A stretch of DNA of 20,738 nt from the IMG/VR virus record IMGVR_UViG_3300043449_001742, positions 1-20,738 of that record; one strand, given 5' to 3'. Positions 2,125 to 13,248 of this stretch are shown piece by piece; the stretch's first letter is position 1; each line of letters begins with the position of its first letter. The notes beneath the pieces were generated by a model. The model did no database searches. It had not been told where the DNA came from and worked only from the letters and a program-made list of their open reading frames with translations. The translations under genes were made by a program, and so were the position numbers. Origin of the DNA: a virus.

Positions 2125-2175
2125 TGTGACGAGATGTGACAGGCCTCGGTTTTGGGGCCTGTCACCCGCCACACT
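2125..2175 (+). promoter_or_regulatory. Promoter module copy A (diverged)
   Basis: Direct repeats TGTGACGA (2125-2132) and TGTGACAG (2135-2142), 10 bp apart, are followed after 27 nt by CACACTGG (-10-like CACACT at 2170-2175). Repeat period and spacing equal those of the other copies. The linker is GA instead of AT, and the leader to the ATG at 2211 lacks a GNRA hairpin, keeping only a weak TGGT/ACCA pairing. Confidence 0.7.
2136..2165 (+). repeat. 10-bp perfect inverted repeat inside copy A
   Basis: GTGACAGGCC (2136-2145) and GGCCTGTCAC (2156-2165) pair perfectly around TCGGTTTTGG. It could end ssb transcripts, although no T-tract follows. It also places an inverted TGTCAC half-site between the direct repeats and the -10, so it could be an extra operator. 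Confidence 0.6.
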
Positions 2176-2210
2176 GGCCCTGGTTCCGATACCACCCCAA
2201 CCCCAACCCC

Positions 2211-2471
2211 ATGAAACTGATTGCACTGCTGGGCGCCGCCGCATTGGCCGCAACCCCAGTCCCCGCTCAAGCCACCACCCCGTCCTATGCCAAGGCGGTG
2301 GCGTTTGAGACCTGCCGCAACCAACGGGCAGGCATGACCTCCACCACCGCGATCCGCAAGGCACTGGACGACCTCTGGCCGATCTACGGCGCAGACATCA
2401 CCCGCGACACCTCAGCGGTGGCGGCCCGGTACGTCGTGGCCGAGCGCATCATCCTCTGCGGTGACCTGTGA
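2211..2471 (+). CDS. Small secreted protein with signal peptide
   Basis: An 86-residue protein of unknown function with a clear Sec-type signal peptide: MKL, then the hydrophobic stretch IALLGAAALAA and TPVPAQA, with likely cleavage after AQA at residue 21. The mature part of about 65 residues has two cysteines (in FETCRNQ and ILCGDL), so one disulfide is possible. The ATG at 2211 is first after promoter copy A, in a C/A-rich leader without Shine-Dalgarno. The stop overlaps the next gene as TGATG. An exported early phage protein could act in the periplasm or on the host surface, for example in exclusion, but nothing in the sequence shows this. Confidence 0.75.
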   Translation: MKLIALLGAAALAATPVPAQATTPSYAKAVAFETCRNQRAGMTSTTAIRKALDDLWPIYGADITRDTSAVAARYVVAERIILCGDL

Positions 2472-2965
2472 TGAGCAAGGCACCGCAATGGAGCACCGAG
2501 GCGCCCCCAGGGCTCGACCTTGGTAGCACCACCATTGACCAGGCCAACGAGATCGTCGGCGCAGCCGGCTATGAGCCGCTGGCGCGTGGCACTCTGAACG
2601 CCCTCTATCGGGCCGGATGGGGCGCCGCTGACCGGGTGATCTACGGCGAAGCCAAGGAGCTGATGTTCAAGAACTGCATCGGCGTGAAGCGGATGGGCGA
2701 GGTGGATGCCTGGCGCACCGCCCTGCTGTCGGTGGTGACGCCGGATGGCGAGGCCATGAGCACGGCTGAGCGTGTGGTGCTGAACCTGATGCGCCGCAAG
2801 GTGCCGGAGGTGCAGACCGTGCCAACGGATGATGTGCTTGCGATGATCCGCCAAGGCAACCACACCGAGCACCTGCGCGAGCTGCTGCTGGAGCTGGCAC
2901 TGCTGGTGCCGCCCCGGCTGGATGGCCCGACCCGGCAGTGGCTGCTGGAGGTGGCCCGTGGGTGA
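2471..2965 (+). CDS. Hypothetical phage protein
   Basis: Unrecognised 164-residue protein. It has a Thr/Ile-rich N-terminal part with an Asn-Glu motif (TTIDQANEIVGAAGYEPL), a central basic stretch (FKNCIGVKRMGEVDAW) and a Leu-rich helical C-terminus (LRELLLELALLVPPRLDGPTRQWLLEVAR). No signal peptide or obvious membrane segment is seen. The ATG at 2471 overlaps the preceding stop (TGATG). A GTG directly before it is less likely. The C-terminal coding sequence contains the Shine-Dalgarno site and GTG start of the next gene. It could be a replication or DNA-binding accessory protein, but this is only suggested by location. Confidence 0.7.
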   Translation: MSKAPQWSTEAPPGLDLGSTTIDQANEIVGAAGYEPLARGTLNALYRAGWGAADRVIYGEAKELMFKNCIGVKRMGEVDAWRTALLSVVTPDGEAMSTAERVVLNLMRRKVPEVQTVPTDDVLAMIRQGNHTEHLRELLLELALLVPPRLDGPTRQWLLEVARG

Positions 2966-3368
2966 CTACCAAGCAACGCCTGACGACTGGGCCAACGCTG
3001 AGACGATGGCCGCGCACGACGACGGCATGGGCTACTACGCCCTGCGCTGCATCATCGAACTCCGCGCCAGGGTCGAGGCACTGGAGGCCCGACGCCCAGC
3101 GTCCAAGGTCTACGAGATCAATGAGCCGCTGAAGCTCACCCCAAGGCAGCAGGAGGAGATCGCCGCGCTGCTGCGGCCTGACCCCAAGCCAGCGGTCAAG
3201 GGGCCTTCGGTGGTGACGCGAGTGGCTGCCGCCATCAGCCAAGACGGTGAGCCGATCCACTGGGCCGGAGCCTACGCCGCGATCCGCGAGGTGGCGGCGT
3301 GGATGCGGGAGCAGCATGACGGTGACCTGGTGGCAGCGACCGTGCTTGAGCAGGAGGCCGGGAGATGA
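2958..3368 (+). CDS. Hypothetical protein with central coiled coil
   Basis: Unrecognised 136-residue protein. After VGDYQATPDDWANAETMAAHDDGMGYYALRC a helix rich in Glu/Arg/Leu (IIELRARVEALEARR, about residues 34-48) looks like a short coiled coil. LTPRQQEEIAALLRP follows and then a helical C-terminus. I chose the GTG at 2958 because GGAGG at 2947-2951 sits 6 nt before it. A longer reading from 2922 would be entirely antisense-like filler inside the previous gene. It overlaps its neighbours by 8 nt upstream and 4 nt (ATGA) downstream, so it belongs to the coupled chain. Confidence 0.65.
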   Translation: MGDYQATPDDWANAETMAAHDDGMGYYALRCIIELRARVEALEARRPASKVYEINEPLKLTPRQQEEIAALLRPDPKPAVKGPSVVTRVAAAISQDGEPIHWAGAYAAIREVAAWMREQHDGDLVAATVLEQEAGR

Positions 3369-3562
3369 CCCACCCCATCACCCCACCGCCGGAGCTGACC
3401 ATCACCGTGCAGGGCCTCGATTGGCCCGTAACCCTCGGCAACTTCACCCTTGTGGGATCTGTCAACAATCAAGGCGCATGGCGCTGGTACGAGCGCCAAC
3501 ACGACGATGGCACCATCGAACGCATCAAAGTTGACCACCAACTGCAACCCCTAAAACAATGA
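3365..3562 (+). CDS. Small hypothetical protein
   Basis: Unrecognised 65-residue protein, mainly beta-type by composition (LTITVQGLDWPVTLGNFTLVGSVNNQGAWRWYERQHDDGTIERIKVDH). It begins MTHPITPPPELT, similar to the next gene's MTNTPAISPPPELV, which suggests a shared leader peptide or an old duplication of the start region. AGGAGG at 3352-3357 lies 7 nt before the ATG, and the start overlaps the preceding stop by 4 nt (ATGA). The stop overlaps the next start in the same way. Confidence 0.65.
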   Translation: MTHPITPPPELTITVQGLDWPVTLGNFTLVGSVNNQGAWRWYERQHDDGTIERIKVDHQLQPLKQ

Positions 3563-3909
3563 CCAACACACCTGCCATCAGCCCACCGCCGGAGTTGGTG
3601 CAACGGTGGGGCAGTAATGCCGTGCTTTTGGGTTTGGAGCACAGTGAATCGCACTGGGCTTATGAACAGCACATCGCCACCCGCGCCGCCCAATGGGGTG
3701 CCGAGCAGGAGCTGGAGGCGTGCTGCGAGCTGATGGATGACTGGGGGCTTGAAGCGTCTGACCTCCGCGTCGCCCGCCGCCCCAAGCCGCCGAGCTTGAA
3801 GGAGCAGGCGCTGGCTTTGATCAACGACTGCACCGATCCAGAAGGCGACTACCTGGACGACAACGCTCTGTCCATCATCCGACGCGCACTGGAGCAACTC
3901 GATGACTGA
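3559..3909 (+). CDS. Hypothetical protein of a picocyanobacterial/phage family
   Basis: A 116-residue protein of unknown function. From memory, its pattern (ISPPPELVQRW near the start, HIATRAAQWGAEQELEACCELMDDWG in the middle, LRVARRPKPPSLKEQALALIND next) recurs as a hypothetical family in marine and freshwater Synechococcus-type genomes and their phages, which is one reason for the host inference. It is soluble and mostly helical, with a Cys-Cys pair in the central helix. It overlaps the upstream gene by 4 nt and the downstream gene by 8 nt (ATGACTGA). The family assignment is from recollection of the pattern, not from a search. Confidence 0.75.
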   Translation: MTNTPAISPPPELVQRWGSNAVLLGLEHSESHWAYEQHIATRAAQWGAEQELEACCELMDDWGLEASDLRVARRPKPPSLKEQALALINDCTDPEGDYLDDNALSIIRRALEQLDD

Positions 3910-4093
3910 CCTCTCTCCCGCCGCCAGCGCCATCCTCGAAGCGTGGCGATGCGGCGCTCCCATCGGTGAGCCTCGCATCGCCCAGCGCCTGGCCGCCGCA
4001 CTCACCGCCCTGGCGGTGCGCATCAAGGGCGCCCCTGACATCCGCCAGGACGTGCTCGACATCATCAACGAACTGGAGCAGGCCGATGACTGA
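3902..4093 (+). CDS. Small helical hypothetical protein
   Basis: A 63-residue, Ala-rich, probably all-helical protein (LSPAASAILEAWRCGAPIGEPRIAQRLAAALTALAVRIKGAPD, then RQDVLDIINELEQADD). Its C-terminus resembles that of the preceding protein (ALSIIRRALEQLDD), so the two may be related. Start and stop are both embedded in ATGACTGA overlaps of 8 nt, the same junction used between exo and recT. Function unknown. Confidence 0.65.
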   Translation: MTDLSPAASAILEAWRCGAPIGEPRIAQRLAAALTALAVRIKGAPDIRQDVLDIINELEQADD

Positions 4094-4316
4094 CTGGAAC
4101 CCCGTGCTCCTGTGGAGCGAAGAGACCACGCCCGCCAAGTACGGCCCGGGCGTGAGCCGGCCCCGCGATGGCCAGCGGACCAGGCCCTACCGGCTGCTGG
4201 TCCGCAACGGCAACGCCCAACCCATGAAGGTGACGCTCCAGGCCCCGACCAAGCGCGACGCCCTGCGCTACGGGCAGAACCGCTGGCCTGGTGCTGCGGT
4301 GGAGGTGCTGGCATGA
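4086..4316 (+). CDS. Small hypothetical protein
   Basis: A 76-residue basic protein of unknown function (MTDWNPVLLWSEETTPAKYGPG, then RPYRLLVRNGNAQPMKVTLQAPTKRDALRYGQNRWPGAAVEVLA). The C-terminal half reads as beta-strand, helix, strand, a small domain of the type that often binds nucleic acid or protein, with no motif to decide. The ATG at 4086 lies in the 8-nt overlap with the preceding gene; longer readings from 3966 are out-of-frame shadow. The stop overlaps the next ATG by 4 nt. Confidence 0.6.
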   Translation: MTDWNPVLLWSEETTPAKYGPGVSRPRDGQRTRPYRLLVRNGNAQPMKVTLQAPTKRDALRYGQNRWPGAAVEVLA

Positions 4317-4489
4317 CCCTGCCCACCGACTGGACCCGCTGCCACGACAGCAGCTGCGAGCACCGGGAGGAGTGCCTGCGATGGCTTGACCGCGACAGCG
4401 GTTGGAGCCACGCCAGGACCCACCGGGTCGATGGGGGCCCCTGCCTGGCGCAAGTGTTACGGATTGCGACGAACTTGTTTTCCGGGTGA
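4313..4489 (+). CDS. Small Cys-containing protein running into promoter copy B
   Basis: A 58-residue protein (MTLPTDWTRCHDSSCEHREECLRWLDRDSGWSHARTHRV...). Three Cys and a His (C10, C15, H17, C21) could hold one zinc, but the spacing is unlike a standard finger. GGAGG at 4301-4305 sits 7 nt before the ATG. The last 11 codons are read through promoter copy B. Where related copies have GTG-TGA (stop), this one has GTG-TTA, so the protein is extended by LRIATNLFSG. This is probably a recent loss of the stop inside the promoter repeat. Confidence 0.65.
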   Translation: MTLPTDWTRCHDSSCEHREECLRWLDRDSGWSHARTHRVDGGPCLAQVLRIATNLFSG

Positions 4490-4530
4490 GGTGCGCCCCC
4501 ATACTGGTGGAACCGAGGGCGGAGACGCCC
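4455..4530 (+). promoter_or_regulatory. Promoter module copy B
   Basis: Direct repeats TGTTACGG (4455-4462) and TGCGACGA (4465-4472) are followed after 27 nt by CATACT (4500-4505) as -10, with no -35 at normal spacing. The 5' leader hairpin is GGGCG (4517-4521), GAGA loop, CGCCC (4526-4530). It lies partly inside the preceding reading frame and drives the gene at 4550. Confidence 0.8.
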
Positions 4531-4549
4531 CACCACCCCACCGCCGACC

Positions 4550-4939
4550 ATGGCCTTCGCCACCGCCGCCGCCACCCCGATCCGCCGCCCCGAGTTCAGC
4601 CGCCAGTTTGACTGCTTCCCCCTGGACGCCGGTTTCCGCGCCGTCTGGACCGTGGACCAGCGACCCGACCAGGAGATCTGCCTGGAGGAGGGTGAGTTCC
4701 AGATCAGCACCCCCAACGGCCAGCGCCTGATCGCCAAGCTGACCGGCCGCACCCGTAAGGCTCGCCGCCGCAGCGAGGGCACCCTGGCCACCTGCGAGGT
4801 CTTCCACATCGACACCGTGGTGGAGATGGTGGGCGAGCTGCCGGTACTGGTGGGCCGCCGTGGCGAGCGGGTCGAGGGCGGCACCTGGGGCGTCCACCTG
4901 ACCGCCCTGACCGGCAACACCCTGGCCAGCCTGGCCTGA
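4550..4939 (+). CDS. Hypothetical early phage protein
   Basis: Unrecognised 129-residue protein, mainly beta by composition ([85 protein letters not shown]). A basic loop ([10 protein letters not shown]) lies near its middle. There is no signal peptide or membrane segment. It is the only gene between promoter copies B and C, so it is a single-gene transcription unit. Its leader is C/A-rich (CACCACCCC type) without Shine-Dalgarno. The last codons and TGA directly precede copy C. Confidence 0.7.
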
Positions 4940-4940
4940 T

Positions 4941-5015
4941 TGTTACGGATTGCAACGGGGCGTTGACCGGCGCCCCCGTTCGCATGGACACTGGTTTCAA
5001 CGGGGGGAGACCCCC
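4941..5015 (+). promoter_or_regulatory. Promoter module copy C
   Basis: Direct repeats TGTTACGG (4941-4948) and TGCAACGG (4951-4958) are followed after 28 nt by GACACT (4987-4992) before the conserved TGGTTTCA. The spacer can form an AACGGGG/CCCCGTT-type hairpin. The leader hairpin is GGGGG (5002-5006), GAGA, CCCCC (5011-5015). It drives the DUF2958 gene. Confidence 0.8.
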
Positions 5016-5039
5016 ACCACCCCAAGACCGAGCACCACC

Positions 5040-5330
5040 ATGAAACTGATCACCAAAGCCCAAGCCAAGAAGATCCCCGCCCTCTACGCCCAGGACGGGC
5101 AGGGGATGGAGGCCATCGCCTTCATCAAGCTGTTCACGCCCTGGTCGAGCTGGACCTGGTACGTCACCGAGATGGACCCGGAGACCGGCGAGTGCTTCGG
5201 CCTGGTGCATGGGCACGAGCGTGAGCTGGGCTACTTCAGCCTGGCGGAGCTGGAGTCGATCACCGGACCGGCTGGGCTCAAGATCGAGCGGGACCTCCAC
5301 TTTAACCCCAAGCCCCTGAGCCAAGTGTGA
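5040..5330 (+). CDS. DUF2958-family protein
   Basis: A 96-residue protein matching the DUF2958 pattern almost end to end: [18 protein letters not shown], then [47 protein letters not shown], then [16 protein letters not shown]. The family is common on plasmids, integrative elements and phages, and its biochemical role is unknown to me. It is the single gene between promoter copies C and D. Its TGA stop (5328-5330) is supplied by the TGTGAC of copy D. I chose the ATG at 5040 because homology begins there and the longer frame would include the promoter. Confidence 0.85.
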
Positions 5331-5405
5331 CGGATTGTTACGGGGCGCCCGATGCGGTGCCCCTAGCCGCCATACTGGTCTCAGTTCAACCGGGGGCGAC
5401 CCCGG
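5326..5405 (+). promoter_or_regulatory. Promoter module copy D
   Basis: Direct repeats TGTGACGG (5326-5333) and TGTTACGG (5336-5343) precede CATACT (5371-5376) by 27 nt. The spacer holds an 8-bp hairpin, GGGGCGCC (5342-5349) with GGTGCCCC (5356-5363). The leader hairpin is CCGGGG (5390-5395), GCGA, CCCCGG (5400-5405). The first repeat contains the stop codon of the DUF2958 gene. Confidence 0.85.
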
Positions 5406-5412
5406 AACCCCG

Positions 5413-5730
5413 ATGAAGACCCCCACCGCCGTCGTCAAGACCCTGGAGCACAAGTTCGACAGGGAGTACCTGCGCTCCCCCGGCTTCGCTGAAAAGATGC
5501 TCCAAGCGCTGGCCCAGCGCAGCACCGACTTCACGGTCAAGCTGCTGGCCCAGGGTGCCCTCTGGTCCGACGCCACCGGGCGCACCTCCGGCACCGTGAG
5601 CTTGGCCCTGCGCAAGGCCACCAAGTTCCAGGCCGCCCGCCTGATTCACGCCATGGTGGCCGATGGCCTGACCGTCCAAGCCGAGGTGCCGGCCTGGCTG
5701 AACGCCAACGCCCTGGCCATCTTGGCCTGA
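5413..5730 (+). CDS. Hypothetical early phage protein
   Basis: Unrecognised 105-residue, probably helical protein (MKTPTAVVKTLEHKFDREYLRSPGFAEKMLQALAQRSTDFTVKLLAQGALWSDATGRTSGTVSLALRKATKFQAARLIHAMVADGLTVQ...). It ends LNANALAILA, similar to the NTLASLA end of the protein at 4550, which may reflect shared 3' cassette ends. The ATG is only 7 nt after the leader hairpin of copy D, the shortest such leader in the window. It is the only gene between copies D and E. Confidence 0.7.
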   Translation: MKTPTAVVKTLEHKFDREYLRSPGFAEKMLQALAQRSTDFTVKLLAQGALWSDATGRTSGTVSLALRKATKFQAARLIHAMVADGLTVQAEVPAWLNANALAILA

Positions 5731-5731
5731 G

Positions 5732-5807
5732 TGTGACGGATTGTTACGGCCCCGCCACCAGGGGCCGATCAGCAGCCATACTGGTTTCACCGGGGCGGAG
5801 ACGTCCC
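5732..5807 (+). promoter_or_regulatory. Promoter module copy E
   Basis: Direct repeats TGTGACGG (5732-5739) and TGTTACGG (5742-5749) precede CATACTGGTTTCACC (-10 at 5777-5782) by 27 nt. The spacer hairpin is CGGCCCC (5747-5753) with GGGGCCG (5761-5767). The leader hairpin is GGGGCG (5792-5797), GAGA, CGTCCC (5802-5807), with one G-U pair. It starts an operon from 5825. Confidence 0.85.
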
Positions 5808-5824
5808 ACAACCCCAACCGAACG

Positions 5825-6115
5825 ATGACCCGCACCCCTTCCACCCGCACCGTCCTCAAGGCCCTCCGCGAAGCCGGCTTCGACATGACCGCCATCGTTG
5901 AGCAGCACCGGGGCTGCATCGAGATCGGCTACCTGAACCCCGAGACCAAGCGCGTCGAGTTGGCCGACCGCGAGCGCACCGAGCAGGCCGCCACCGTGGC
6001 CGAAGAGCTGCTGGGCTGGGGCGGTTACCGGAGCGGCTATGGAACCTACTGGCTGGAGGTCGGCTACCGCTACGACGATCCGACCCGCGAGCTGATCCGC
6101 AACAACATGGACTGA
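5825..6115 (+). CDS. Hypothetical early phage protein
   Basis: Unrecognised 96-residue protein: a helical start (STRTVLKALREAGFDMTAIVEQHRGCIEIGYLNPETKRVELADRE) followed by a Gly/Tyr-rich C-terminal part (LLGWGGYRSGYGTYWLEVGYRYDDPTRELIRNNMD). The alternation suggests a small alpha/beta fold. It is the first gene of the unit driven by copy E. A further GNRA hairpin starts 1 nt after its stop, before the next gene, so the two probably share a transcript with a structured junction. Confidence 0.7.
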   Translation: MTRTPSTRTVLKALREAGFDMTAIVEQHRGCIEIGYLNPETKRVELADRERTEQAATVAEELLGWGGYRSGYGTYWLEVGYRYDDPTRELIRNNMD

Positions 6116-6116
6116 C

Positions 6117-6130
6117 CCTGGGCGACCAGG
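6117..6130 (+). other. Intercistronic GNRA hairpin without promoter box
   Basis: CCTGG (6117-6121), GCGA, CCAGG (6126-6130) is followed by the same CCACCACCC-type leader as in the promoter modules, but no direct repeats or -10 lie upstream. The hairpin and leader therefore also occur inside an operon, which points to a role in the RNA. Confidence 0.6.
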
Positions 6131-6156
6131 CCACCACCCACCACCACCCCGACACC

Positions 6157-6354
6157 ATGACCCCCTACGAACAGTTCACAGAATGGCTCGACGAGTGCCC
6201 CTGCCCATGGCTGCTGATCGAGGACCACGCCGACAGCCGGACCCTCAAGTTCTTCCCGGACGAGGCCCACGACGAGGACGAGGGCGAGGACGAATACGAC
6301 TGGCGCACCCATCCAAGTCTCACGCCCGAGCAACGCAACCCATCTCTGCGATAG
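6157..6354 (+). CDS. Small acidic protein
   Basis: A 65-residue, strongly acidic protein (TPYEQFTEWLDECPCPWLLIEDHADSRTLKFFPDEAHDEDEGEDEYDWRTHPSLTPEQRNPSLR). The Asp/Glu run in the second half resembles DNA-mimic or inhibitor-type small phage proteins in composition only. It starts after the hairpin at 6117 in a CACC-rich leader. In the -1 frame its 3' end continues into a hydrophobic segment (ISAIAELILIIWAAVAVAHTLSR) that stops as TGATG on the next start, so a membrane-tailed longer form is conceivable, although no slippery heptamer is visible. Confidence 0.6.
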   Translation: MTPYEQFTEWLDECPCPWLLIEDHADSRTLKFFPDEAHDEDEGEDEYDWRTHPSLTPEQRNPSLR

Positions 6355-6412
6355 CCGAACTCATCCTGATCATCTGGGCTGCCGTGGCGGTGGCCCACAC
6401 CCTGAGCCGCTG

Positions 6413-6892
6413 ATGCCTGAGCCCTACGACTACGACAGCCAAGACCCGACCTTCCTGACCGACCTGCGCGACAGCCGCAAGGCGGTGGAGGTGGTGGCCT
6501 CCTGGCTGTCATCGCAGGGCTATCCGGTGGTGGTGCGCCCCACCTTTGAGCGGCCAGACCCGTCAGCCATGGCGGAGTTCGCCGACGATGGTGACCTGGA
6601 GATCCTGCAACGGGTCGAGGTGAAGCGCCGCCGCTCGCTGACCTTCACCAGCCGCGAGGACTTCCCGCATCCCACCCTGATCGTGGACGCCTGCCACTGC
6701 TACGACCGCGCCAGGCCCAAGCCCTACGCCTACATCATCCTGAACCGCGAGATGACCACCGCCTTCGTGGTGGACTGCCGCACCACGCGCCCGCACTGGG
6801 CGAGGGTGACCAAGCACGACCGCTTCAAGAACCGCGAGCGGCACTTCTATGAGTGCCCCATCCATCTGGTGCGCGTCGAGCGACTATCCTGA
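6413..6892 (+). CDS. Putative PD-(D/E)XK-like protein
   Basis: A 159-residue soluble protein. A helix with KAVEVVASWLSSQGYPVVVRP is followed by FADDGDLEILQRVEVKRRRSLTFTSREDFPHPTLIVDACHCYDRARPKPYAYIILNREMTTAFVVDCRT. The acidic residues before VEVK (D...ExK) and the following strands fit a restriction-endonuclease-like nuclease fold, and the cryptic KRRR could contact DNA. This is a motif-based guess; the protein could also be a non-catalytic relative. The ATG at 6413 overlaps a TGA of the -1 frame. It is the last gene of the unit driven by copy E. Confidence 0.6.
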   Translation: MPEPYDYDSQDPTFLTDLRDSRKAVEVVASWLSSQGYPVVVRPTFERPDPSAMAEFADDGDLEILQRVEVKRRRSLTFTSREDFPHPTLIVDACHCYDRARPKPYAYIILNREMTTAFVVDCRTTRPHWARVTKHDRFKNRERHFYECPIHLVRVERLS

Positions 6893-6932
6893 CCTCGCTG
6901 GGTCGGCTCCACCCGTAAGGGCGAGCGCCTTG

Positions 6933-6966
6933 GGTCGCTTGGGGATGGTCTCCCCGGGGGGCGACC
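6933..6966 (+). other. Extended imperfect hairpin before zinc-ribbon gene
   Basis: Outer arms GGTCGC (6933-6938) and GCGACC (6961-6966) enclose inner arms GGGGA (6941-6945) and TCCCC (6951-6955). It lies in the 115-nt gap 6893-7007, which has no promoter module. It may be a terminator for the upstream unit (no T-tract) or a structured leader. Confidence 0.4.
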
Positions 6967-7007
6967 TGGACGAGGCATCGGAGGCCCAGCACTCACTCCC
7001 CCACCTG

Positions 7008-7547
7008 ATGATGACCTGTCCCACCTGCGGCAGCGCACGGATCGAAGTGTGCGAAGTGCGCCGCTGCATCAACGGCACCCGCCGCCGCCGTATGCGCTGC
7101 GTTGACTGCGACCACCGCTGGACCACCTGGGACGGGCCTAGGCCGCCGCGAGGCGGTGCCGGCCTGCGCAGCTCGCCCAGAGCGTCCGGCAAGAAGCGCG
7201 GCGCACTCACCGACGAGCAGGTGCGCCAGGCGCTGATCCGCCGTGACCTCAACAACGCCGAGGCGGGCCGGGTGATTGGCTGCTCTGCCGAGTCGGTTCG
7301 CCAGATCCGCGCCGGCCTGGTCTACCGCATGGTCCACCCTGAGCTGCTGCGGCCCAACGCACCTGCTGATGCACCACCACCGACCGTCAGCGGGCCCAGC
7401 TGCCACGAGTGCGTGAACTGGACGGGCGCCCGCTGCGGCTTCGGGTTCCCGGACCCACTGCTGGAGGGCCTGGGCTTTGCCTCCGACTGCGACCTCTATG
7501 AGGTGAGCCAGTCGATGAGCCTGGCCTGCCCGACCTCGGTCCAGTAG
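7008..7547 (+). CDS. Zinc-ribbon and HTH-like protein
   Basis: About 180 residues. The N-terminal [42 protein letters not shown] is a four-Cys zinc ribbon of the NrdR/TFIIS-like type. The middle part ([40 protein letters not shown]) looks like a helix-turn-helix, and a second Cys group follows ([35 protein letters not shown]). A DNA-binding regulator is plausible. Two ATGs at 7008 and 7011 are equally possible starts; the frame is open upstream but loses resemblance. The last 52 nt overlap the minus-strand HNH gene tail to tail, and the tail after DLYE looks like antisense of that gene rather than native sequence. Confidence 0.7.
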
Positions 7548-7795
7548 GGCTGCTCCCGCCACCAGCTGAAGACCTCCCGGTGTCCCTTGCGGCGGTTACA
7601 GGCCAGACAAGCCGGCACCAGGTTGCGGGGGATCGTGAGTCCGCCTTTGGCCTTGGGGACAACGTGATCGAGGCTCTCCGCCCCGTCGCCGCAATAAGCG
7701 CAGCGGTGCTCCCAGGCGCTCAGGATGCCGTGCCTGAAGCGGTGGCGGGCAGTGCGGGCAGGGACGAACTCGGTGCCATCAATCCGGGCCTGCAT
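7496..7795 (-). CDS. HNH endonuclease, antisense in early cluster
   Basis: A 99-residue HNH nuclease: CAYCG (C32, C35), [12 protein letters not shown] (D43, H44), then [14 protein letters not shown] (N58, C63, C66, N67), with the two CxxC pairs binding zinc and DH...N forming the catalytic beta-beta-alpha-metal site. Small HNH proteins of this type are often free-standing homing endonucleases. It is one of only two minus-strand genes in the early cluster, overlaps the 3' end of the zinc-ribbon gene and ends its upstream side 42 nt from promoter copy F. No clear Shine-Dalgarno site or promoter was seen. Insertion between two transcription units by homing is the likely origin. Confidence 0.85.
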
Positions 7796-7836
7796 CCGCA
7801 GCCAGCCGCTCGGGTCATGCTAGGCACGGCGGCTTG

Positions 7837-7912
7837 CGTGACGGATTGTTACAGGACTCGCCGTTGAGGGCGATGGCGCCCGATACTGGTTTCACCGGGG
7901 GCGAGATCCCCC
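7837..7912 (+). promoter_or_regulatory. Promoter module copy F
   Basis: Direct repeats CGTGACGG (7837-7844) and TGTTACAG (7847-7854) precede GATACTGGTTTCACC (-10 at 7882-7887) by 27 nt. The spacer hairpin is TCGCC/GGCGA. The leader hairpin is GGGGG (7897-7901) and CCCCC (7908-7912) around C-GAGA-T, with a C-U mismatch closing the tetraloop. It drives the longest early unit, which includes the nucleotide enzymes. Confidence 0.85.
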
Positions 7913-7927
7913 ACCACCCCGACGACC

Positions 7928-8146
7928 ATGACCCCCAACGCCTGCATCGCCCGCACCGCCGCCTACACCTTCACCGAGGTGCTCCACTACGAGGACGGCA
8001 CCACCGTGGTGAGCCGCTGCGAAAGCGTCCGCCGCGAGCCCAGCCTGGCCGTTTCCCGCCTCGCCACCGACGGCAACGGCTTCCGCTTCTGGAACGACCA
8101 CGACCCCCGCATCGTGGCTGTCGAGTACGCCTACGCCGCTGCGTGA
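7928..8146 (+). CDS. Small hypothetical protein
   Basis: Unrecognised 72-residue protein (MTPNACIARTAAYTFTEVLHYEDGTTVVSRCESVRREPSLAVSRLATDGNGFRFWNDHDPRIVAVEYAYAAA), beta-rich by composition, with two cysteines. It is the first gene after copy F and starts 15 nt after the leader hairpin in a CCACCACCCC leader. The 35-nt gap to the next gene is again C/A-rich and has no hairpin or box. Confidence 0.65.
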   Translation: MTPNACIARTAAYTFTEVLHYEDGTTVVSRCESVRREPSLAVSRLATDGNGFRFWNDHDPRIVAVEYAYAAA

Positions 8147-8181
8147 GCGACCCTTTGCCCCTTCACCCCAAGACGACTATC

Positions 8182-8340
8182 ATGCGCACGTTTCTTGCCT
8201 CCACTGGTCTGTGCCTGGCCCTGAGTGCCGGGTTCTGGTTCGCACTGACCAGCACCCTGACCGACTTGACGACCCGCGACTGCCGGGCAGGCGTGAGCCA
8301 GGCCTGCGAGCAGCTCCGCCGCGACGGAGTCCAGCCGTGA
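8182..8340 (+). CDS. Small membrane or exported protein
   Basis: A 52-residue protein: MRTFLASTGLCLALSAGFWFALTSTLTDLTTRDCRAGVSQACEQLRRDGVQP. Residues 4-24 form one hydrophobic segment after a single Arg, either an uncleaved membrane anchor or a signal peptide. The remaining part has two cysteines that could pair outside the membrane. The stop overlaps the GTG start of the next gene (GTGA). This is the second exported-type small protein in the early region, with the one at 2211. Function unknown. Confidence 0.65.
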   Translation: MRTFLASTGLCLALSAGFWFALTSTLTDLTTRDCRAGVSQACEQLRRDGVQP

Positions 8341-8540
8341 CCTACGCCCTGCGGCGTGGCTGCCAATGGATCAGCGCCACCGAAGGCCAAGGCGAGGGCC
8401 TGCTACTGCCGCCCGTGCTGGCCCTCTGCGACACCACCGACACCGCCTGGCTGGCCGATAGCCTGGAGCTGGCCCTGGAGCGGCAGACGCTGATCCGGCA
8501 CTGCTGGGGCTGGACCACCGAGGTCAGAGCCCTGCGGTGA
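8337..8540 (+). CDS. Small hypothetical protein
   Basis: Unrecognised 67-residue protein from a GTG start (VTYALRRGCQWISATEGQGEGLLLPPVLALCDTTDTAWLADSLELALERQTLIRHCWGWTTEVRALR). I preferred GTG at 8337 over a longer reading from 8211 because the latter is an out-of-frame copy of the gene above. Its start and stop both sit in 4-nt GTGA overlaps, so translation is coupled both ways. Confidence 0.6.
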   Translation: MTYALRRGCQWISATEGQGEGLLLPPVLALCDTTDTAWLADSLELALERQTLIRHCWGWTTEVRALR

Positions 8541-8797
8541 ACCTTGCCAAGATCCGAGGCCTCATGCGCCTCTACTGGTCCAGCGACCTGACGCTGGAGC
8601 TGAACATCGCCCGAATTGTCTACGCCGCCATGCACCCCGCCATGCACCCTGACTGTTGCCCCATCGAGCAGCAAGCCGTCCAAGACCAGCTCGAAGCCTG
8701 GTATGAGGCGGACGGCCGCCACGACCCGGCCCACCCGCAGCACGCGCACTACACAGGCCTCGCTGCGAAGTACCGCCAGCCGCAGGTGACGCCATGA
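8537..8797 (+). CDS. Small hypothetical protein
   Basis: An 86-residue protein from a GTG start (MNLAKIRGLMRLYWSSDLTLELNIARIVYAAMHPAMHPDCCPIEQQAVQDQLEAWYEADGRHDPAHPQHAHYTGLAAKYRQPQVTP). It has a tandem AMHP repeat followed by CC, and is His-rich in the second half, which could bind metal. It overlaps the upstream gene by GTGA and dcd by ATGA. Its place directly before dCTP deaminase in a coupled chain suggests co-expression with nucleotide metabolism, nothing more. Confidence 0.6.
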   Translation: MNLAKIRGLMRLYWSSDLTLELNIARIVYAAMHPAMHPDCCPIEQQAVQDQLEAWYEADGRHDPAHPQHAHYTGLAAKYRQPQVTP

Positions 8798-9321
8798 GCA
8801 TCCTGAGCGACTGGCAAATCCGCGCCCGCTGCCAGGGCGCCGGCGCGATGGTGGTGCCCTTCGATCCGGGCCTGGTGAACCCCGCCAGCCTGGACGTGCG
8901 CCTGGGCCGCCACATCAAGATCGAGTCCGCCACCACGCCCGAGCTAATCCTCTACGACCTGGAGCGCGAGGGCTGGGATGAGGAGACGCCTTACCTGCTG
9001 CGGCCTGGGCAGTTCATCCTGGCGGAGACCATCGAGACCTTCCACCTGCCGGCCGACATCGCCGCGCAGTTCATGCTCAAGTCCAGCCGCGCCCGCGAGG
9101 GCCTGGAGCACCTGATGGCGGGCTACTGCGACCCCGGCTGGCACGGGTCGAAGCTCACCCTGGAACTGCACAACAGCCGCCAGCTGCACTGCGTTGCGAT
9201 CTGGCCCGGCATGAAGATCGGGCAGATGGTGTTCCACAAGATGGATCAGGCGCCGCTGCGGACCTACGCCGAGACCGGCCGCTACAACAACGACCAGCAA
9301 GTGCAAGGGAGCCGGGGCTGA
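8794..9321 (+). CDS. dcd: dCTP deaminase (dUTPase superfamily)
   Basis: dCTP deaminase, converting dCTP to dUTP and so feeding dUMP and thymidylate synthesis. The 175-residue sequence begins ILSDWQIRARC and has LVNPASLDVRLG (29-38), KSSRAREGL (96-104), CDPGWHGSKLTLELHN (112-127, E124 in the place of the catalytic Glu), PGMKIGQMVFHKM and the C-terminal GRYNNDQQVQGSRG that closes over the substrate. Length is normal. Some members also have dUTPase activity, which cannot be told from sequence alone. It overlaps the upstream gene by ATGA and thyX by TGATG. With thyX and the kinase it forms a dTTP-supply group. Confidence 0.9.
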   Translation: MSILSDWQIRARCQGAGAMVVPFDPGLVNPASLDVRLGRHIKIESATTPELILYDLEREGWDEETPYLLRPGQFILAETIETFHLPADIAAQFMLKSSRAREGLEHLMAGYCDPGWHGSKLTLELHNSRQLHCVAIWPGMKIGQMVFHKMDQAPLRTYAETGRYNNDQQVQGSRG

Positions 9322-9947
9322 TGGCTGTCTCCTTCGTTCACTGCACGCCCGAGGCCGAGCGACTGATCGTCCGCATGGCAAGGGTCAGCAACCCCGCCAA
9401 CCAGGACAACGACGCCACCGCGCCCCGGCTGCTGCGCTACCTGATCAAGCACCAGCACTGGTCGCCCTTCGAGATGGCCAGCCTCTGCGTCGAGATCCAG
9501 ACCGAGCGCGACATCGCCGCGCAGATCTTGCGCCATCGCAGCTTCAGCTTTCAGGAGTTCAGCACCCGCTACGCCGTCACCGACCGAGCCGAGGCGCCAC
9601 GCTTCCGCCGCCAGGACCAGCAGAACCGCCAGGCCAGCCACGACGACCTGCCCGACGAGGTGCAGGACAGCTGCCGCTTGGCGGCTGAGAATCTGCTGCG
9701 CGAGGTTCATGCGTTCTACTGGTCGCTGCTGGAGGAGGGCGTGGCCAGGGAGACCGCCCGCCGCATCCTGCCGCTCTGCACCCCGACCACCCTCTACATG
9801 CACGGGACAATTCGATCTTGGCTGCACTATCTAAAGGTCAGAACTGGGCCAGAAACCCAGCTAGAGCACCGGCAAATAGCAGAAGGTTGCCGAGACATTT
9901 TTGCGGCTCAGTTTCCTGTCATTTTTTCTGCTGTTGAATGGAACTAA
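9321..9947 (+). CDS. thyX: Flavin-dependent thymidylate synthase ThyX
   Basis: Makes dTMP from dUMP using methylenetetrahydrofolate, FAD and NADPH. The 208-residue product carries the ThyX signature RHRSFSFQEFSTR (71-83) after AAQIL, with HQHWSPFEMASLCVEIQ (44-60) upstream and the C-terminal HGTIRSWLHYLKVRTGPETQLEHRQIAEGCRDIFAAQFP that completes the active site. It starts at the TGATG junction with dcd. From about codon 163 the base composition drops from typical G+C-rich to about half, and stays low through the next gene, although the protein is intact. That fits replacement of the 3' end during insertion of the adjacent homing-type nuclease gene. The stop overlaps that gene by 10 nt. Confidence 0.95.
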   Translation: MAVSFVHCTPEAERLIVRMARVSNPANQDNDATAPRLLRYLIKHQHWSPFEMASLCVEIQTERDIAAQILRHRSFSFQEFSTRYAVTDRAEAPRFRRQDQQNRQASHDDLPDEVQDSCRLAAENLLREVHAFYWSLLEEGVARETARRILPLCTPTTLYMHGTIRSWLHYLKVRTGPETQLEHRQIAEGCRDIFAAQFPVIFSAVEWN

Positions 9948-10438
9948 AACTCTGCAAATACTGCTCAACGATTTTGCCCGCTTCTCAGTTTTCGCCTCAT
10001 CCTCACACCAAAGACAGGCGATCAAACAAGTGCAAAACTTGCGTAGCTGCTTACAACCGCGACCGATGGAAGCGATTGTCGCCAGAGGAAAAGCAGGCGC
10101 GAGTTGAGCAAAACAGAAGGCTCAGAGAAAGACGCGCCACTGCGTACCGTGACGCAAACCGCTGCAAGGCTTTTCGTCGCAAATACGGAGTAACGCTTGC
10201 CGAGTATCACCAGCAATGGCAGCGCCAAGATTGCCGTTGCGCTATTTGCGATCGGCCGCGCTCTGATGATGAGTTAGCGTTTGCAATAGATCACTGCCAT
10301 GCGACTGGCAGCGTTCGCGGCATACTTTGCCCTCAATGCAACGTCGATCTCGGTCGAATCGAGAGGTATCTCGCCAAGCCCGAGCTGATAGACGCTTACC
10401 TTTCTTGCCCACCCTGGAACTCACAACCTCATGATTGA
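9938..10438 (+). CDS. Endonuclease VII-type HNH nuclease, probably homing
   Basis: A 166-residue nuclease of the recombination endonuclease VII (His-Me finger) type. The N-terminus has CKYC and CKTC zinc pairs (C6, C9, C32, C35), then a basic helix (RNRRLRERR-like), then YGVTLAEYHQQWQRQDCRCAICDRPRSDDELAFAIDHCHATGSVRGILCPQCNVDLGRI, with zinc Cys at 101, 104, 131 and 134, D118-H119-H121 and N135. Such genes in phages are often free-standing homing endonucleases, though some resolve branched DNA. The A+T-richer composition, unlike both neighbours, and tight overlaps with thyX (10 nt) and the kinase gene (ATGATTGA, 8 nt) argue for insertion by homing. Confidence 0.85.
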   Translation: MELKLCKYCSTILPASQFSPHPHTKDRRSNKCKTCVAAYNRDRWKRLSPEEKQARVEQNRRLRERRATAYRDANRCKAFRRKYGVTLAEYHQQWQRQDCRCAICDRPRSDDELAFAIDHCHATGSVRGILCPQCNVDLGRIERYLAKPELIDAYLSCPPWNSQPHD

Positions 10439-10952
10439 ACTGATCGGGCTCTACAGCCCCGCCCCGCAGTCGGGCAAGACCACCGTGGCCACCGCCCTGG
10501 AGCACCAGGGCTTCGCCAGGGTGCCGTTCGCCGATCCGCTCAAGGCGATGGTGGTCCAGTTCCTCCAGGGGCTGGGCTACCGCGACGACGAGGCCCAGCG
10601 CCTGGTCCACATCGACAAGGGCGCCAAGATCCCGCAGCTGGGCGTCACCGTGCGCCACCTGCTCCAGACGCTCGGTACGGAGTGGGGCCGTACCTGCGTG
10701 GCGCCCGATGTCTGGCTGAAGTGCTGGGCGGCCAGCGCGATGCGGCACCCGTGCGTCGTGGTCGATGACGTGCGGTTCCCCAACGAGGCCGAGCTGATCA
10801 AATCGATGGGCGGCCAGCTCTGGCGGATCGAGCGCCCGGGGCTGGCCGACACCAGCGGCCACGCATCGGAGGGCGGCCTGGCCGACTGGGCCTTCGACTG
10901 GGTGATCATCAACGACGGCACCGTGGAGGACCTGGTTCGTGATCTCCGCTGA
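10431..10952 (+). CDS. Deoxynucleoside monophosphate kinase-like protein
   Basis: A 173-residue P-loop protein of the phage dNMP kinase type (T4 gene 1-like). It starts MIELIGLYSPAPQSGKTTVATALEHQGF, with the Walker A loop at residues 6-18, followed by VPFADPLKAMVVQFLQGLG, a VRHLLQTLGTEWGR motif, PDVWLKCW and CVVVDDVRFPNEAELI, as usual for this family. It would phosphorylate dTMP and other dNMPs, the step after ThyX. Composition returns to G+C-rich from its first codons. The GTG of the next gene lies inside its 3' end. Confidence 0.85.
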   Translation: MIELIGLYSPAPQSGKTTVATALEHQGFARVPFADPLKAMVVQFLQGLGYRDDEAQRLVHIDKGAKIPQLGVTVRHLLQTLGTEWGRTCVAPDVWLKCWAASAMRHPCVVVDDVRFPNEAELIKSMGGQLWRIERPGLADTSGHASEGGLADWAFDWVIINDGTVEDLVRDLR

Positions 10953-11142
10953 GGTGCCCCGCTACGCCGGGCAGACCTGGCCCTGCTACGGCGTCCAGCC
11001 CCAGGGCTGGGAAGAGACCACCAGGTTCCTGCCGTTCGTGCATGACGGCCGCGTCGTGCACTGGGGCTGGCCCCGCTCGACTGAGAGCGAGGCGATGGAG
11101 GTGGCCGCCAGAATGGCAGCAGAGATCGAGCCCCGCCAATGA
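10939..11142 (+). CDS. Small hypothetical protein
   Basis: A 67-residue protein from GTG at 10939 (VISAEVPRYAGQTWPCYGVQPQGWEETTRFLPFVHDGRVVHWGWPRSTESEAMEVAARMAAEIEPRQ). It looks like a small beta-beta-alpha domain ending in a helix, with four Trp residues. It overlaps the kinase gene by 14 nt and the following gene by ATGA. Function unknown. Confidence 0.6.
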   Translation: MISAEVPRYAGQTWPCYGVQPQGWEETTRFLPFVHDGRVVHWGWPRSTESEAMEVAARMAAEIEPRQ

Positions 11143-11315
11143 TCGAGCCCATCGTGGTGAGCCGGACGGATCGAGACGGGGGCTGGATCGAAACCCTGGA
11201 GCCGGCGGATGGTGGTGAGCTGTATTACCGCAGCTGCGCTCACGGCTACTGCCGCTACAGCTCCGACCTTTGGCAGGCCGAACTCTACCTCGACCACCTG
11301 CTGGCCTCGGGATAG
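11139..11315 (+). CDS. Small hypothetical protein
   Basis: A 58-residue protein (MIEPIVVSRTDRDGGWIETLEPADGGELYYRSCAHGYCRYSSDLWQAELYLDHLLASG). C/H residues (C38, H40, C43) make a tiny metal site conceivable. It starts in the ATGA overlap with the previous gene and ends the + strand run that began at 7928. Its last 31 nt overlap the convergent minus-strand gene. Confidence 0.6.
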   Translation: MIEPIVVSRTDRDGGWIETLEPADGGELYYRSCAHGYCRYSSDLWQAELYLDHLLASG

Positions 11316-11566
11316 AGGTCCCGGGCCCATTGGACGTATTGGGCGTCAGGCTCCTCGATGGCGCCCAGCTGGGCCAGCTGCACCTCAGCCTCAGCCACCT
11401 GGGCGAGTAGCTGGCTGGTGATGTCCACCTGGCCGCACCAGGCTCGGTAGGCCTGCTCAGCCACCTTGCGGAGCCGGTCCAGGTCGGAGCACTCCCTGAT
11501 GGCGCGGACGTGGGTCTCAACCGCCAGCTCCTCCTCAAGGGGGAGACCGAATTGAAGCCAGGCCAT
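11285..11566 (-). CDS. Lone minus-strand hypothetical gene, faintly NblA-like
   Basis: A 93-residue helical protein (MAWLQFGLPLEEELAVETHVRAIRECSDLDRLRKVAEQAYRAWCGQVDITSQLLAQVAEAEVQLAQLGAIEEPDAQYVQWARDLYPEASRWSR). The F-x-L-x-(V/L)-E-x-(Q/E) start, followed by two helices, faintly recalls NblA, the phycobilisome-degradation adaptor found in cyanobacteria and some cyanophages. The match is too weak to name it. I also recall a family of small picocyanobacterial phage proteins of this shape. The frame continues to an ATG at 11617, but the start at 11566 gives the better beginning. It converges with the + strand gene at 11139 and diverges from the HNH gene at 11659. Confidence 0.6.
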   Translation of the reverse strand: MAWLQFGLPLEEELAVETHVRAIRECSDLDRLRKVAEQAYRAWCGQVDITSQLLAQVAEAEVQLAQLGAIEEPDAQYVQWARDLYPEASRWSR

Positions 11567-11617
11567 AGGTGCCCCGCAGTGATGCCCTAAGGTAGCCAGC
11601 ACCACCGCCCGGGGCAT

Positions 11618-11633
11618 CGTAGCCGTGGCTACG
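11618..11633. repeat. 7-bp palindrome between divergent genes
   Basis: CGTAGCCGTGGCTACG is a dyad with 7-bp arms around GT, lying in the 92-nt gap between the minus-strand gene (start 11566) and the HNH gene (start 11659). It is a plausible operator. A wider GATGCCC/GGGCATC pair overlaps the same gap. Confidence 0.4.
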
Positions 11634-11658
11634 CTTGGTGACAGGCGCGTGCCTGCGC

Positions 11659-11973
11659 ATGGCTGCGGACCCGTACAAGCGGCGCCTGGCGATTGCGCGA
11701 TGCAGGGCCAGAGCCAAGGCCAAGGCCAAGGCTTGGGTGCTGGCGTACCTGCTGGGGCACCCGTGCCTGGACTGCGGTGAGGCCGACCCGAAGGTGCTGG
11801 AGTTCGACCACCGCGACCCGGCCCTGAAGCGCCACAACATCAGCCGGATGGTGAGCGACGGGATGGGCCTGGCGAGCATCGAGCGGGAGGTGGCGAAGTG
11901 CGACGTGCGCTGCTGCAACTGCCACCGGAGGCGGAGCCTGGACGAGGGCCACGGCAGCTTCCGCCGTATGTGA
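11659..11973 (+). CDS. Small HNH endonuclease
   Basis: A 104-residue HNH protein. A very basic start (PYKRRLAIARCRARAKAKAKAW) is followed by CLDCGEADPKVLEFDHRDPALKRHNISRMV (C36, C39, D50-H51) and CDVRCCNCHRRRS (C85, C88, N87, H89). The HNH centre and zinc pairs are complete. It is the third nuclease of this class in the early cluster and, like the others, stands at the edge of a transcription unit. I chose ATG 11659 over TTG 11635. Its stop TGA (11971-11973) is provided by the first repeat of promoter copy G. A homing or packaging-type nicking role is possible. Confidence 0.8.
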   Translation: MAADPYKRRLAIARCRARAKAKAKAWVLAYLLGHPCLDCGEADPKVLEFDHRDPALKRHNISRMVSDGMGLASIEREVAKCDVRCCNCHRRRSLDEGHGSFRRM

Positions 11974-12039
11974 CGGATTGTTACGGCGTTGCCGGATGGG
12001 CGGGTGAGCGGGCATAATTAGGGGACCGGGGGCGACCCC
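11969..12039 (+). promoter_or_regulatory. Promoter module copy G
   Basis: Direct repeats TGTGACGG (11969-11976) and TGTTACGG (11979-11986) precede CATAAT (12013-12018), the best -10 of all copies, by 26 nt. The leader hairpin is GGGG (12028-12031), GCGA, CCCC (12036-12039). The downstream TGGTTTCACC is replaced by TAGGGGACC. It drives the gene at 12059. Confidence 0.85.
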
Positions 12040-12058
12040 ACCACCCCAACCCAAGCAA

Positions 12059-12289
12059 ATGACCACCACCCAACTGACCACCAAAGAGCAAGAGCTGCTC
12101 GACGCCATCAACGAAGGCATGGACCAGCCCGGCTGCGGCTGGCTGCATGAAGTCACCCCCTTCAGCAACGATCACGTCACCGCCGGAGTGCTTGGCTCTT
12201 TGATCTCCAAGGGCCTTGTTCACAGCTACGAGGACACCGAAGGGCCGATGGTTTGCTACTGGGTTTCGCTGATCGACGAGCCGGCCTGA
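12059..12289 (+). CDS. Small winged-helix-like protein
   Basis: A 76-residue protein (TTTQLTTKEQELLDAINEGMDQPGCGWLHEVTPFSNDHVTAGVLGSLISKGLVHSYEDTEGPMVCYWVSLIDEPA). The order helix, helix (VTAGVLGSLISKGLV as recognition-type helix) and wing (HSYEDTEG...CYWVSL) fits a small winged-helix DNA-binding fold of MarR-like type. It is the only gene between copies G and H. As a promoter-module gene with a DNA-binding look it could regulate the module itself. That is inference. Confidence 0.65.
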   Translation: MTTTQLTTKEQELLDAINEGMDQPGCGWLHEVTPFSNDHVTAGVLGSLISKGLVHSYEDTEGPMVCYWVSLIDEPA

Positions 12290-12298
12290 GCCCGTCCA

Positions 12299-12318
12299 GG
12301 CCCCGGGCGACCGGGGCC
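12299..12318 (+). other. Perfect 8-bp GCGA-tetraloop hairpin
   Basis: GGCCCCGG (12299-12306), GCGA, CCGGGGCC (12311-12318) follows the winged-helix gene and precedes copy H. There is no T-tract. It has the same tetraloop as the module leader hairpins, but here at a 3' end, so it may protect or end the transcript. Confidence 0.6.
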
Positions 12319-12328
12319 ATCCCGCCCA

Positions 12329-12402
12329 CATGACGGATTGTTACAGGACCACCAGGTGGAGCACCCTGTCGTCCATACTGGTTTCACCGGGGAGAGATCC
12401 CC
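12329..12402 (+). promoter_or_regulatory. Promoter module copy H
   Basis: Direct repeats CATGACGG (12329-12336, first half imperfect) and TGTTACAG (12339-12346) precede CATACTGGTTTCACC (-10 at 12374-12379) by 27 nt. The leader hairpin is GGGGA (12389-12393), GAGA, TCCCC (12398-12402). It drives two small genes. Confidence 0.85.
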
Positions 12403-12419
12403 ACCCACCCCGCAAAGCC

Positions 12420-12611
12420 ATGACCCTCACCGCCGCCGCCGTCATCGAAGAGATCAAGGGCCAGATCGAGGCCCTCCGCTCCGCCGGGGCCGAAGGCGAA
12501 GCCGCTCTGTTCGATTCCGATCTGTTCGTGGCAGGTGATGACCTGCGCGAGCTGCTCATGCTCCGCGAGAGCCTGGACGAATGCCTCTGCCCCGCTTCCG
12601 ACTGCTTCTGA
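12420..12611 (+). CDS. Small acidic helical protein
   Basis: A 63-residue acidic protein (MTLTAAAVIEEIKGQIEALRSAGAEGEAALFDSDLFVAGDDLRELLMLRESLDECLCPASDCF), largely helical, ending in three Cys (CLC...DC). It is the first gene of the unit behind copy H, 17 nt after the leader hairpin in a C/A-rich leader. Function unknown. Confidence 0.65.
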   Translation: MTLTAAAVIEEIKGQIEALRSAGAEGEAALFDSDLFVAGDDLRELLMLRESLDECLCPASDCF

Positions 12612-12615
12612 TCCG

Positions 12616-12807
12616 ATGACCCGCACCGCCTACCGCATCGACGCCATCACCGCCTCCCGCATCCGGGGCAAGGTCTACCGCTCCACCGAGACCCTGGTGG
12701 ACGGGATCGCCAAGCCCTCCGATGCCGACCGCCACCACGCCCGCCTGACCGCCGAGCGCCCGGACGCCCTGGTGGTGATCACCGCCTACGCCGTCCCGGC
12801 TGTGTGA
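12616..12807 (+). CDS. Small hypothetical protein
   Basis: A 63-residue protein (MTRTAYRIDAITASRIRGKVYRSTETLVDGIAKPSDADRHHARLTAERPDALVVITAYAVPAV), basic at the start. It begins 4 nt after the preceding stop, so it shares the transcript from copy H. Its TGA (12805-12807) lies within the first repeat of copy I. The longer reading from 12535 is out of frame with the gene upstream and is not preferred. Confidence 0.6.
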   Translation: MTRTAYRIDAITASRIRGKVYRSTETLVDGIAKPSDADRHHARLTAERPDALVVITAYAVPAV

Positions 12808-12880
12808 CGGATTGTGACAGGCCCGCCGTTGCGGGTCGCCTGGCGTCCATACTGGTTTCACCGAGGGGGAGCGATCCCCC
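12803..12880 (+). promoter_or_regulatory. Promoter module copy I
   Basis: Direct repeats TGTGACGG (12803-12810) and TGTGACAG (12813-12820) precede CATACTGGTTTCACC (-10 at 12848-12853) by 27 nt. The spacer hairpin is CCCGC/GCGGG. The leader hairpin is GGGGGA (12865-12870), GCGA, TCCCCC (12875-12880). It drives the gene at 12898 and contains the upstream stop codon. Confidence 0.85.
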
Positions 12881-12897: not shown

Positions 12898-13248
12898 ATG
12901 ACCGCCACCCTGAACGCCACCTGCACCTGCCCCGTCTGCGGTGGCTCCGGCAAGCTCCCCCACTACAGCCACATCGCCAACGGTGACTGCTTCGCCTGCG
13001 GAGGCTCTGGCACGATCCGAGACCTCACCGCCTTCATTGGCGCCGAGTCCGACGTGAGCCTGGAGGTGGAGGTCATCCGGGGCGAGTTCCGGGGCGCCGT
13101 GCTCCGCTGCCGCACCTGGAAGGTGACCGGCACCTACAAGACCTGGGGCCGCGACCGCTGGGTGCGGGAGATCACCGACGCCGACGAGGCCCGCCGGATC
13201 TGGCGCGACGCCAAGCGCCTGGGGATCGAGACCAGCCTGTTCGACTGA
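12898..13248 (+). CDS. DnaJ-type zinc-finger protein
   Basis: A 116-residue protein with two CxxCxGxG motifs near the start (CPVCGGSGKL and CFACGGSGTI), the zinc-binding type of DnaJ, but with only two repeats and no J domain. The rest is beta-rich (SLEVEVIRGEFRGAVLRCRTWKVTGTYKTWGRDRWVREITDADEARRIWRDAKRLGIET). Small phage proteins with such motifs are frequent and of unknown role. It is the last + strand gene before int, behind copy I and followed by a terminator. Confidence 0.75.
   Translation: MTATLNATCTCPVCGGSGKLPHYSHIANGDCFACGGSGTIRDLTAFIGAESDVSLEVEVIRGEFRGAVLRCRTWKVTGTYKTWGRDRWVREITDADEARRIWRDAKRLGIETSLFD

Follow-up and report, generated by a model that had tools for sequence, protein, structure and literature searches.

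A putative activator-dependent promoter cassette with a hairpin leader in temperate cyanosiphoviruses and T4-like cyanomyoviruses

Introduction

In cyanobacteria, RpaB binds the HLR1 element, KTTACAWW-N2-KTTACAWW, and it acts as an activator when HLR1 is located at about -45 to -66 (PMC13421787; further sources on RpaB and HLR1 are PMC11633204 and PMC9241938). Here a repeated element of similar layout is described from a stretch of viral DNA of 20,738 nucleotides, which is called the window in the following (positions 1 to 20,738 of the IMG/VR virus record IMGVR_UViG_3300043449_001742). The element is a putative promoter module and is present in nine copies. Like HLR1, its operator is 18 bp long and consists of two 8-bp direct repeats that are 2 bp apart (8+2+8), with a T-N-A-C core and a 10-bp period. 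Activation would be from upstream, the repeats being located at about -57 to -40 relative to the predicted transcription start. In contrast to HLR1, its consensus is TGTNACRG and not KTTACAWW, it is found in phages, and a hairpin leader follows.

Three systems of other phages share features with the module. The CII protein of phage lambda activates phage promoters from direct repeats that are likewise about one helical turn apart, but the TTGC repeats of CII straddle the -35 region, whereas the TGTNACRR repeats of the module lie upstream. A lambda CII site was rejected, as no TTGC-N6-TTGC is present across the -35 region and the repeats end 27 nt upstream of the -10 element, and the distinction from CII that had been drawn in an earlier reading of the letters (the sequence-only reading) thus held. 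In the late promoters of P2/P4, the Ogr/Delta site is a TGT-N12-ACA inverted repeat whose centre is near -55. Both systems have a poor -35 and, at about this distance, an upstream site of the activator type, and the zinc-binding activator can be compared with an NrdR-like protein encoded in the window; however, the module contains a direct repeat with 11 nt between TGT and AC, and it was therefore not assigned to this class. The start-associated sequences (SAS) and ESAS of cluster K mycobacteriophages adjoin the start codon. They, too, are noncoding modules that recur in front of numerous small phage genes and in part contain inverted repeats, while the present module combines operator, promoter and 5′ hairpin in about 90 nt and is common to unrelated phages. 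In the open-access literature, neither an earlier description of this kind of cassette, a putative activator-dependent promoter with a direct-repeat site, nor papers that tie RpaB or HLR1 to cyanophage promoters were found.

Results

The sequence-only reading had proposed nine plus-strand copies of the direct repeats. A search with TGTKACRG-N2-TGTKACRG, allowing up to three mismatches, returned exactly nine matches in the window, all on the plus strand and at the proposed places, while shuffled windows contained 1.08 matches on average and four at most, and none of 100 reached nine. When both strands were scored with a weight matrix, the nine copies attained 22.7–32.1 bits and were clearly separated from the best other place in the window (8.7 bits). 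The spacer between the repeats and the -10 element was 27 nt long in seven copies, 28 nt in the copy at 4941 and 26 nt in the copy at 11969, as proposed. The -10 elements are CATACT (five copies), CACACT, GACACT, GATACT and CATAAT. The supposed lack of a -35 at 16–18 bp was verified for eight copies and did not hold for the copy at 4941, where TTGACC precedes the -10 by 18 bp. Each of the nine copies is placed at a gene junction and oriented in the coding direction; those at 5326, 11969 and 12803 include the stop codon of the preceding gene, and the copy at 4455 overlaps the final codons of a short open reading frame (ORF).

The spacer sequences differ among the copies, while the repeats, the -10 element and the leader are kept; therefore, a simple recent duplication of the module was rejected. 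In eight of the nine copies the spacer contains a stem that is longer than in shuffled sequences, and its sequence is unrelated from copy to copy. We read this stem as the end of the transcript from the upstream gene, given that the 3′ end of this gene is where the repeats lie and that three copies include its stop codon. After the SSB gene, a 12-bp stem with a TTTT loop (2137–2164) fills the spacer of the first copy and overlaps its second half-site.

In most copies TCA is found 7 nt after the -10 element (reading GGTTTCA), and its A is the likely +1. A hairpin at about +3 to +20, which the sequence-only reading had not seen, is present in eight of the nine copies, seven of which have a GNRA tetraloop. 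In most copies it is followed by a ACCACCCC-like tract and then ATG, and the predicted leaders are about 29–41 nt long. Among 64 independent leaders, 16 contain a GNRA-capped stem near +1, compared with a mean of 0.1 in shuffled sequences. In an alignment of 15 hairpins all five pairs were changed on both sides; 95.7% of the cells were paired, a value that is inflated by the choice of rows that have a hairpin, so that the exchange of G-C and C-G is the informative part. The covariation score was 0.79 versus 0.21 in shuffles, and 18 versus 5.8 cells were doubly changed. The leader thus shows the compensatory changes of a structured RNA.

The origin of the DNA was characterized by its gene content. 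Domain matches revealed an exonuclease (DUF3799), RecT, SSB, a dCTP deaminase, ThyX, a dNMP kinase and a tyrosine integrase; minus-strand genes are also present, and the last of these is tail J-like. The nearest cultured relatives of the exonuclease are those of the Synechococcus phages S-H1, KBS-S-2A and S-CBS1, while those of the tail protein belong to Prochlorococcus phages, and no close match at the DNA level was found in INPHARED. The assumption of a phage was borne out by the virus record and the phage gene set, and we read the window as part of a temperate siphovirus, with GC-rich picocyanobacteria as its predicted hosts.

Relatives were gathered from IMG/VR by two protein searches and one operator search, and they were scanned with a model that combined operator, spacer and -10/+1 and was refined by iteration, at a threshold that lets about three sites through in shuffled sequence. 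In the window and 27 related contigs 99 distinct sites were scored, which is an upper figure, as a few of the listed sites are weak or inside genes. The family consensus is TGTGAMGGATTGYNACRR, 27/28 nt, TANNNT, 6 nt, A, with stronger conservation of the half-site nearer to the promoter (TTGYNACRR). The spacing was also recovered when the -10 was ignored and near-identical operator matches were merged into clusters: in 12 of 30 independent clusters TANNNT begins 26–29 nt downstream, compared with about 1.7 expected from other positions. Many of the 75 operator matches are apparently due to chance and lack a -10 at the right distance; these were excluded from the counts. In five further cases TANNNT is located at 37–39 nt, i.e., one helical turn farther, which fits an activator confined to one face of the DNA. 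The motif scan that the sequence-only reading had suggested thus extended the module to related phages.

The module is not restricted to siphovirus relatives. Low-GC carriers such as a 246-kb contig (L070) are T4-like cyanomyoviruses, and the gp6 of this contig shares 58% identity with gp6 from Synechococcus phages in culture. The T4-like Synechococcus phage DSL-LC03 (Dishui Lake), which is in culture, has TGTGACGGATTGTTACAG 27 nt before TAGATT, and a gene start follows. One likely copy is present in Synechococcus phage B23, where TAGACT follows TGTTACAGATTGTTACGA after 28 nt and the leader may form a hairpin; the one likely copy of S-CBS1 is weaker and lies directly downstream of a gene end. 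As judged from these sequences, the module is a cassette common to a family of temperate cyanosiphoviruses and to unrelated T4-like cyanomyoviruses. Of the proposal that one activator switches on nine units, the co-regulated set was supported, and the assignment of this set to the regulon of a single phage was too narrow.

The nine copies in the window have the following positions, all on the plus strand. Copy 1 (TGTGACGAGATGTGACAG, 2125–2142) precedes CACACT at 2170–2175 and a gene start at 2211; it is the weakest copy and has no GNRA leader hairpin. In copy 2 (4455–4472) CATACT at 4500–4505 is followed by the hairpin GGGCG-GAGA-CGCCC (4517–4530) and a gene start at 4550. Copy 3 (4941–4958), with GACACT at 4987–4992 and GGGGG-GAGA-CCCCC (5002–5015), belongs to a DUF2958 gene starting at 5040. 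CATACT is also the -10 of copy 4 (5326–5343; -10 at 5371–5376), which has the hairpin CCGGGG-GCGA-CCCCGG (5390–5405) before the gene start at 5413, and of copy 5 (5732–5749; -10 at 5777–5782), with GGGGCG-GAGA-CGTCCC (5792–5807) before the gene start at 5825. Copy 6 (7837–7854) is followed by GATACT at 7882–7887, by GGGGG-CGAGAT-CCCCC (7897–7912), in which GAGA lies within a six-base loop, and by a gene start at 7928. The gene starting at 12059 is preceded by copy 7 (11969–11986), CATAAT at 12013–12018 and GGGG-GCGA-CCCC (12028–12039). For copy 8 (12329–12346) CATACT is at 12374–12379, GGGGA-GAGA-TCCCC at 12389–12402 and the gene start at 12420, and for copy 9 (12803–12820) CATACT is at 12848–12853, GGGGGA-GCGA-TCCCCC at 12865–12880 and the gene start at 12898.

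Two candidate regulators are encoded on the plus strand of the window, an excisionase-like protein with an HTH_17 domain match (1505–1702) and a protein with an NrdR-like zinc ribbon (Zn_ribbon_NrdR just under the Pfam cut-off) and a possible helix-turn-helix (6849–7547). The sequence-only reading had named helix-turn-helix proteins at 1505 and 12059; the former was verified, while the protein at 12059 matched no Pfam family. Most siphovirus relatives have homologues of both proteins: among 24 records searched, the HTH_17 protein had homologues in 19 and the NrdR-like protein in 16, the window being included in both counts. Neither had a homologue in three T4-like carriers of the site (G005, G006, G008) or in the complete S-CBS1, some of the records being fragments. 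HTH_17-like genes are also present in S-H1 and KBS-S-2A, two phages that yielded no module. None of the 24 records contained a match to the OmpR C-terminal domain. The occurrence of the cassette in both cyanosiphoviruses and T4-like cyanomyoviruses speaks more for an activator encoded by the host than for the proteins at 1505 and 12059. The protein at 6849–7547 has a second Cys-rich end beside the zinc ribbon and the possible helix-turn-helix, and several of its homologues contain an internal TGA/TAG in the matched stretch, perhaps reflecting split genes or frameshifts.

Some further elements were observed in other contigs. In the relatives L015, L047, L066 and L071 (also L088, L090 and L092) the last part of the integrase gene is overlapped by one cassette, and behind it lies a small ORF that contains MSIACLTAWAVALLLLPLLVLAWATESRQQRARRWRR followed by a possible helix-turn-helix and apparently encodes a membrane-anchored DNA-binding protein; this cassette is absent from the window. 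In L015, L045, L047, L066, L071 and L102 a long GC-rich structured leader (CATCGGGAGGC..CCGCCTCCTCCGGGGC) extends over about 100 nt from the -10 downstream; it is near-identical before two different genes and could therefore represent a small RNA or riboregulator. Two operator copies with 27-nt spacing (L032:3841 and L032:4195) belong to another phage lineage; they lie on a 76-kb contig that encodes a distant DUF3799 exonuclease (27% identity). At L038:234–400 an array of TGTTACA-like units was found, many of them about 10 bp apart, with no clear -10 at 27 nt.

Discussion

The repeats, their spacing, the covarying hairpin and the conservation in unrelated cyanophages were seen directly. Promoter activity, start site, activation and the early expression of the nine units that the sequence-only reading had proposed are predictions from sequence features, and on this basis the module is very probably an activator-type promoter module, in agreement with the earlier proposal of an upstream direct-repeat site and a co-regulated set of units. 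The best explanation, which is held with slightly less than even confidence as a whole, is an activator-dependent cassette that would be served by an OmpR/PhoB-type activator of the host, with RpaB as the leading candidate. The activator would bind at about -57 to -40, where the two direct half-sites (TGTNACRR) are spaced by one helical turn, and it would recruit the host RNA polymerase to the -10 (TANNNT; CATACT in the window phage) without a -35. Transcription would begin at the A of TCA, and the mRNA would open with a GC hairpin that in most cases has a GNRA cap. This hairpin would probably protect the 5′ end, and a short C-rich tract would lead to the ATG. Most likely, freshwater and estuarine picocyanobacteria would provide the activator, a response regulator of the OmpR/PhoB family.

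It appears rather probable that the activator is host-encoded. The HTH_17 and NrdR-like proteins are missing from the T4-like carriers and S-CBS1, and no OmpR domain occurs in the 24 records, so that the common factor is probably the host's. RpaB leads the candidates because 8+2+8 direct repeats that activate from about -45 to -66 are its known geometry, and by this analogy it is tentatively conceivable that RpaB itself is the activator. The module may work like HLR1, but it was not classified as HLR1 because its sequence departs from HLR1 consistently. This departure is one of several points that weigh against the explanation: KTTACAWW in both repeats fits none of the nine window copies, G predominates at the A/T positions that follow TTAC, TGAC is the usual form of the first half-site, and position 11, which is free in HLR1, is nearly always T. 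RpaB is said to be highly conserved across cyanobacteria, and it therefore also counts against RpaB that no module was found in the sampled phages of marine hosts (S-SM2, Sf-FS3, KBS-S-2A, S-H1 and MED4-117, partly as 40-kb pieces). A search for paired GTNAC in marine cyanophages yielded nothing above chance. A restricted motif with TANNNT gave three chance matches in the GTDB genome set, none of them cyanobacterial, with a pattern that misses most phage copies including all nine of the window. A scan of the collection for a true HLR1 pair with a -10 yielded at least 120 stretches versus 43 for a scrambled control; it is neutral on RpaB, because the matches are a mix of phages, several have a proper -35, and there is no preference for a 27-nt spacing. 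In the viral contigs L145, L146, L170 and L246, GTTACA direct-repeat pairs precede a proper TTGACA/TATRAT-type promoter and form a different repeated promoter-operator element.

The same cassette could also be served by a phage-encoded activator, i.e., the HTH_17 protein, the NrdR-like protein or an unrecognised protein exchanged among cyanophages, and each phage would then switch on its own units after making it. The frequency of homologues of both candidates is in line with this, excisionase-like proteins often bind direct repeats, and a scan of the GTDB set with a strict pattern yielded no exact consensus site in a cyanobacterial genome. Nevertheless, this possibility is rather unlikely, given the absence of both proteins from carriers of the site, the HTH_17-like genes in phages where no module was found, and a consensus that is the same across unrelated phages. 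A regulator that is common to the phages and non-homologous to the two tested proteins would be a further alternative to a host factor.

It is improbable that the repeats are repressor operators (for lysogeny or silencing), or sites of an antisilencing or nucleoid protein, at promoters that are otherwise constitutive. The phage encodes an integrase, and repeated operators are common among phage repressors, but the site lies upstream of the core contacts of RNA polymerase at a -10 without a -35, its spacing is fixed or moved by one helical turn, and it is also present in T4-like phages. A non-regulatory nature, as a recently copied repeat or a recombination or packaging sequence, would suit the clustering of the copies in one arm of the window, but it is highly improbable in view of the varying spacers between constant parts, the covarying stems, the same geometry in unrelated phages and the position of every copy at a gene junction in the coding direction.

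For the explanation by a host activator, the recurrence of the cassette in unrelated cyanophages points to one such activator as a common dependency. Cyanophage transcription initiation is poorly known beyond a few marine isolates, and the precisely defined cassette offers a way to find cyanophage promoters and units. As a candidate 5′ element, the hairpin leader may also serve gene expression in picocyanobacteria, and with the cassette it can be tested directly whether the light/redox state of the host is read during infection. It is a far-reaching and still doubtful idea that unrelated cyanophages of freshwater and estuarine habitats, both temperate and T4-like, tie many small genes to the host light/redox regulator RpaB via one cassette. 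If RpaB were indeed the activator, phage gene expression would follow the photosynthetic state of the host.

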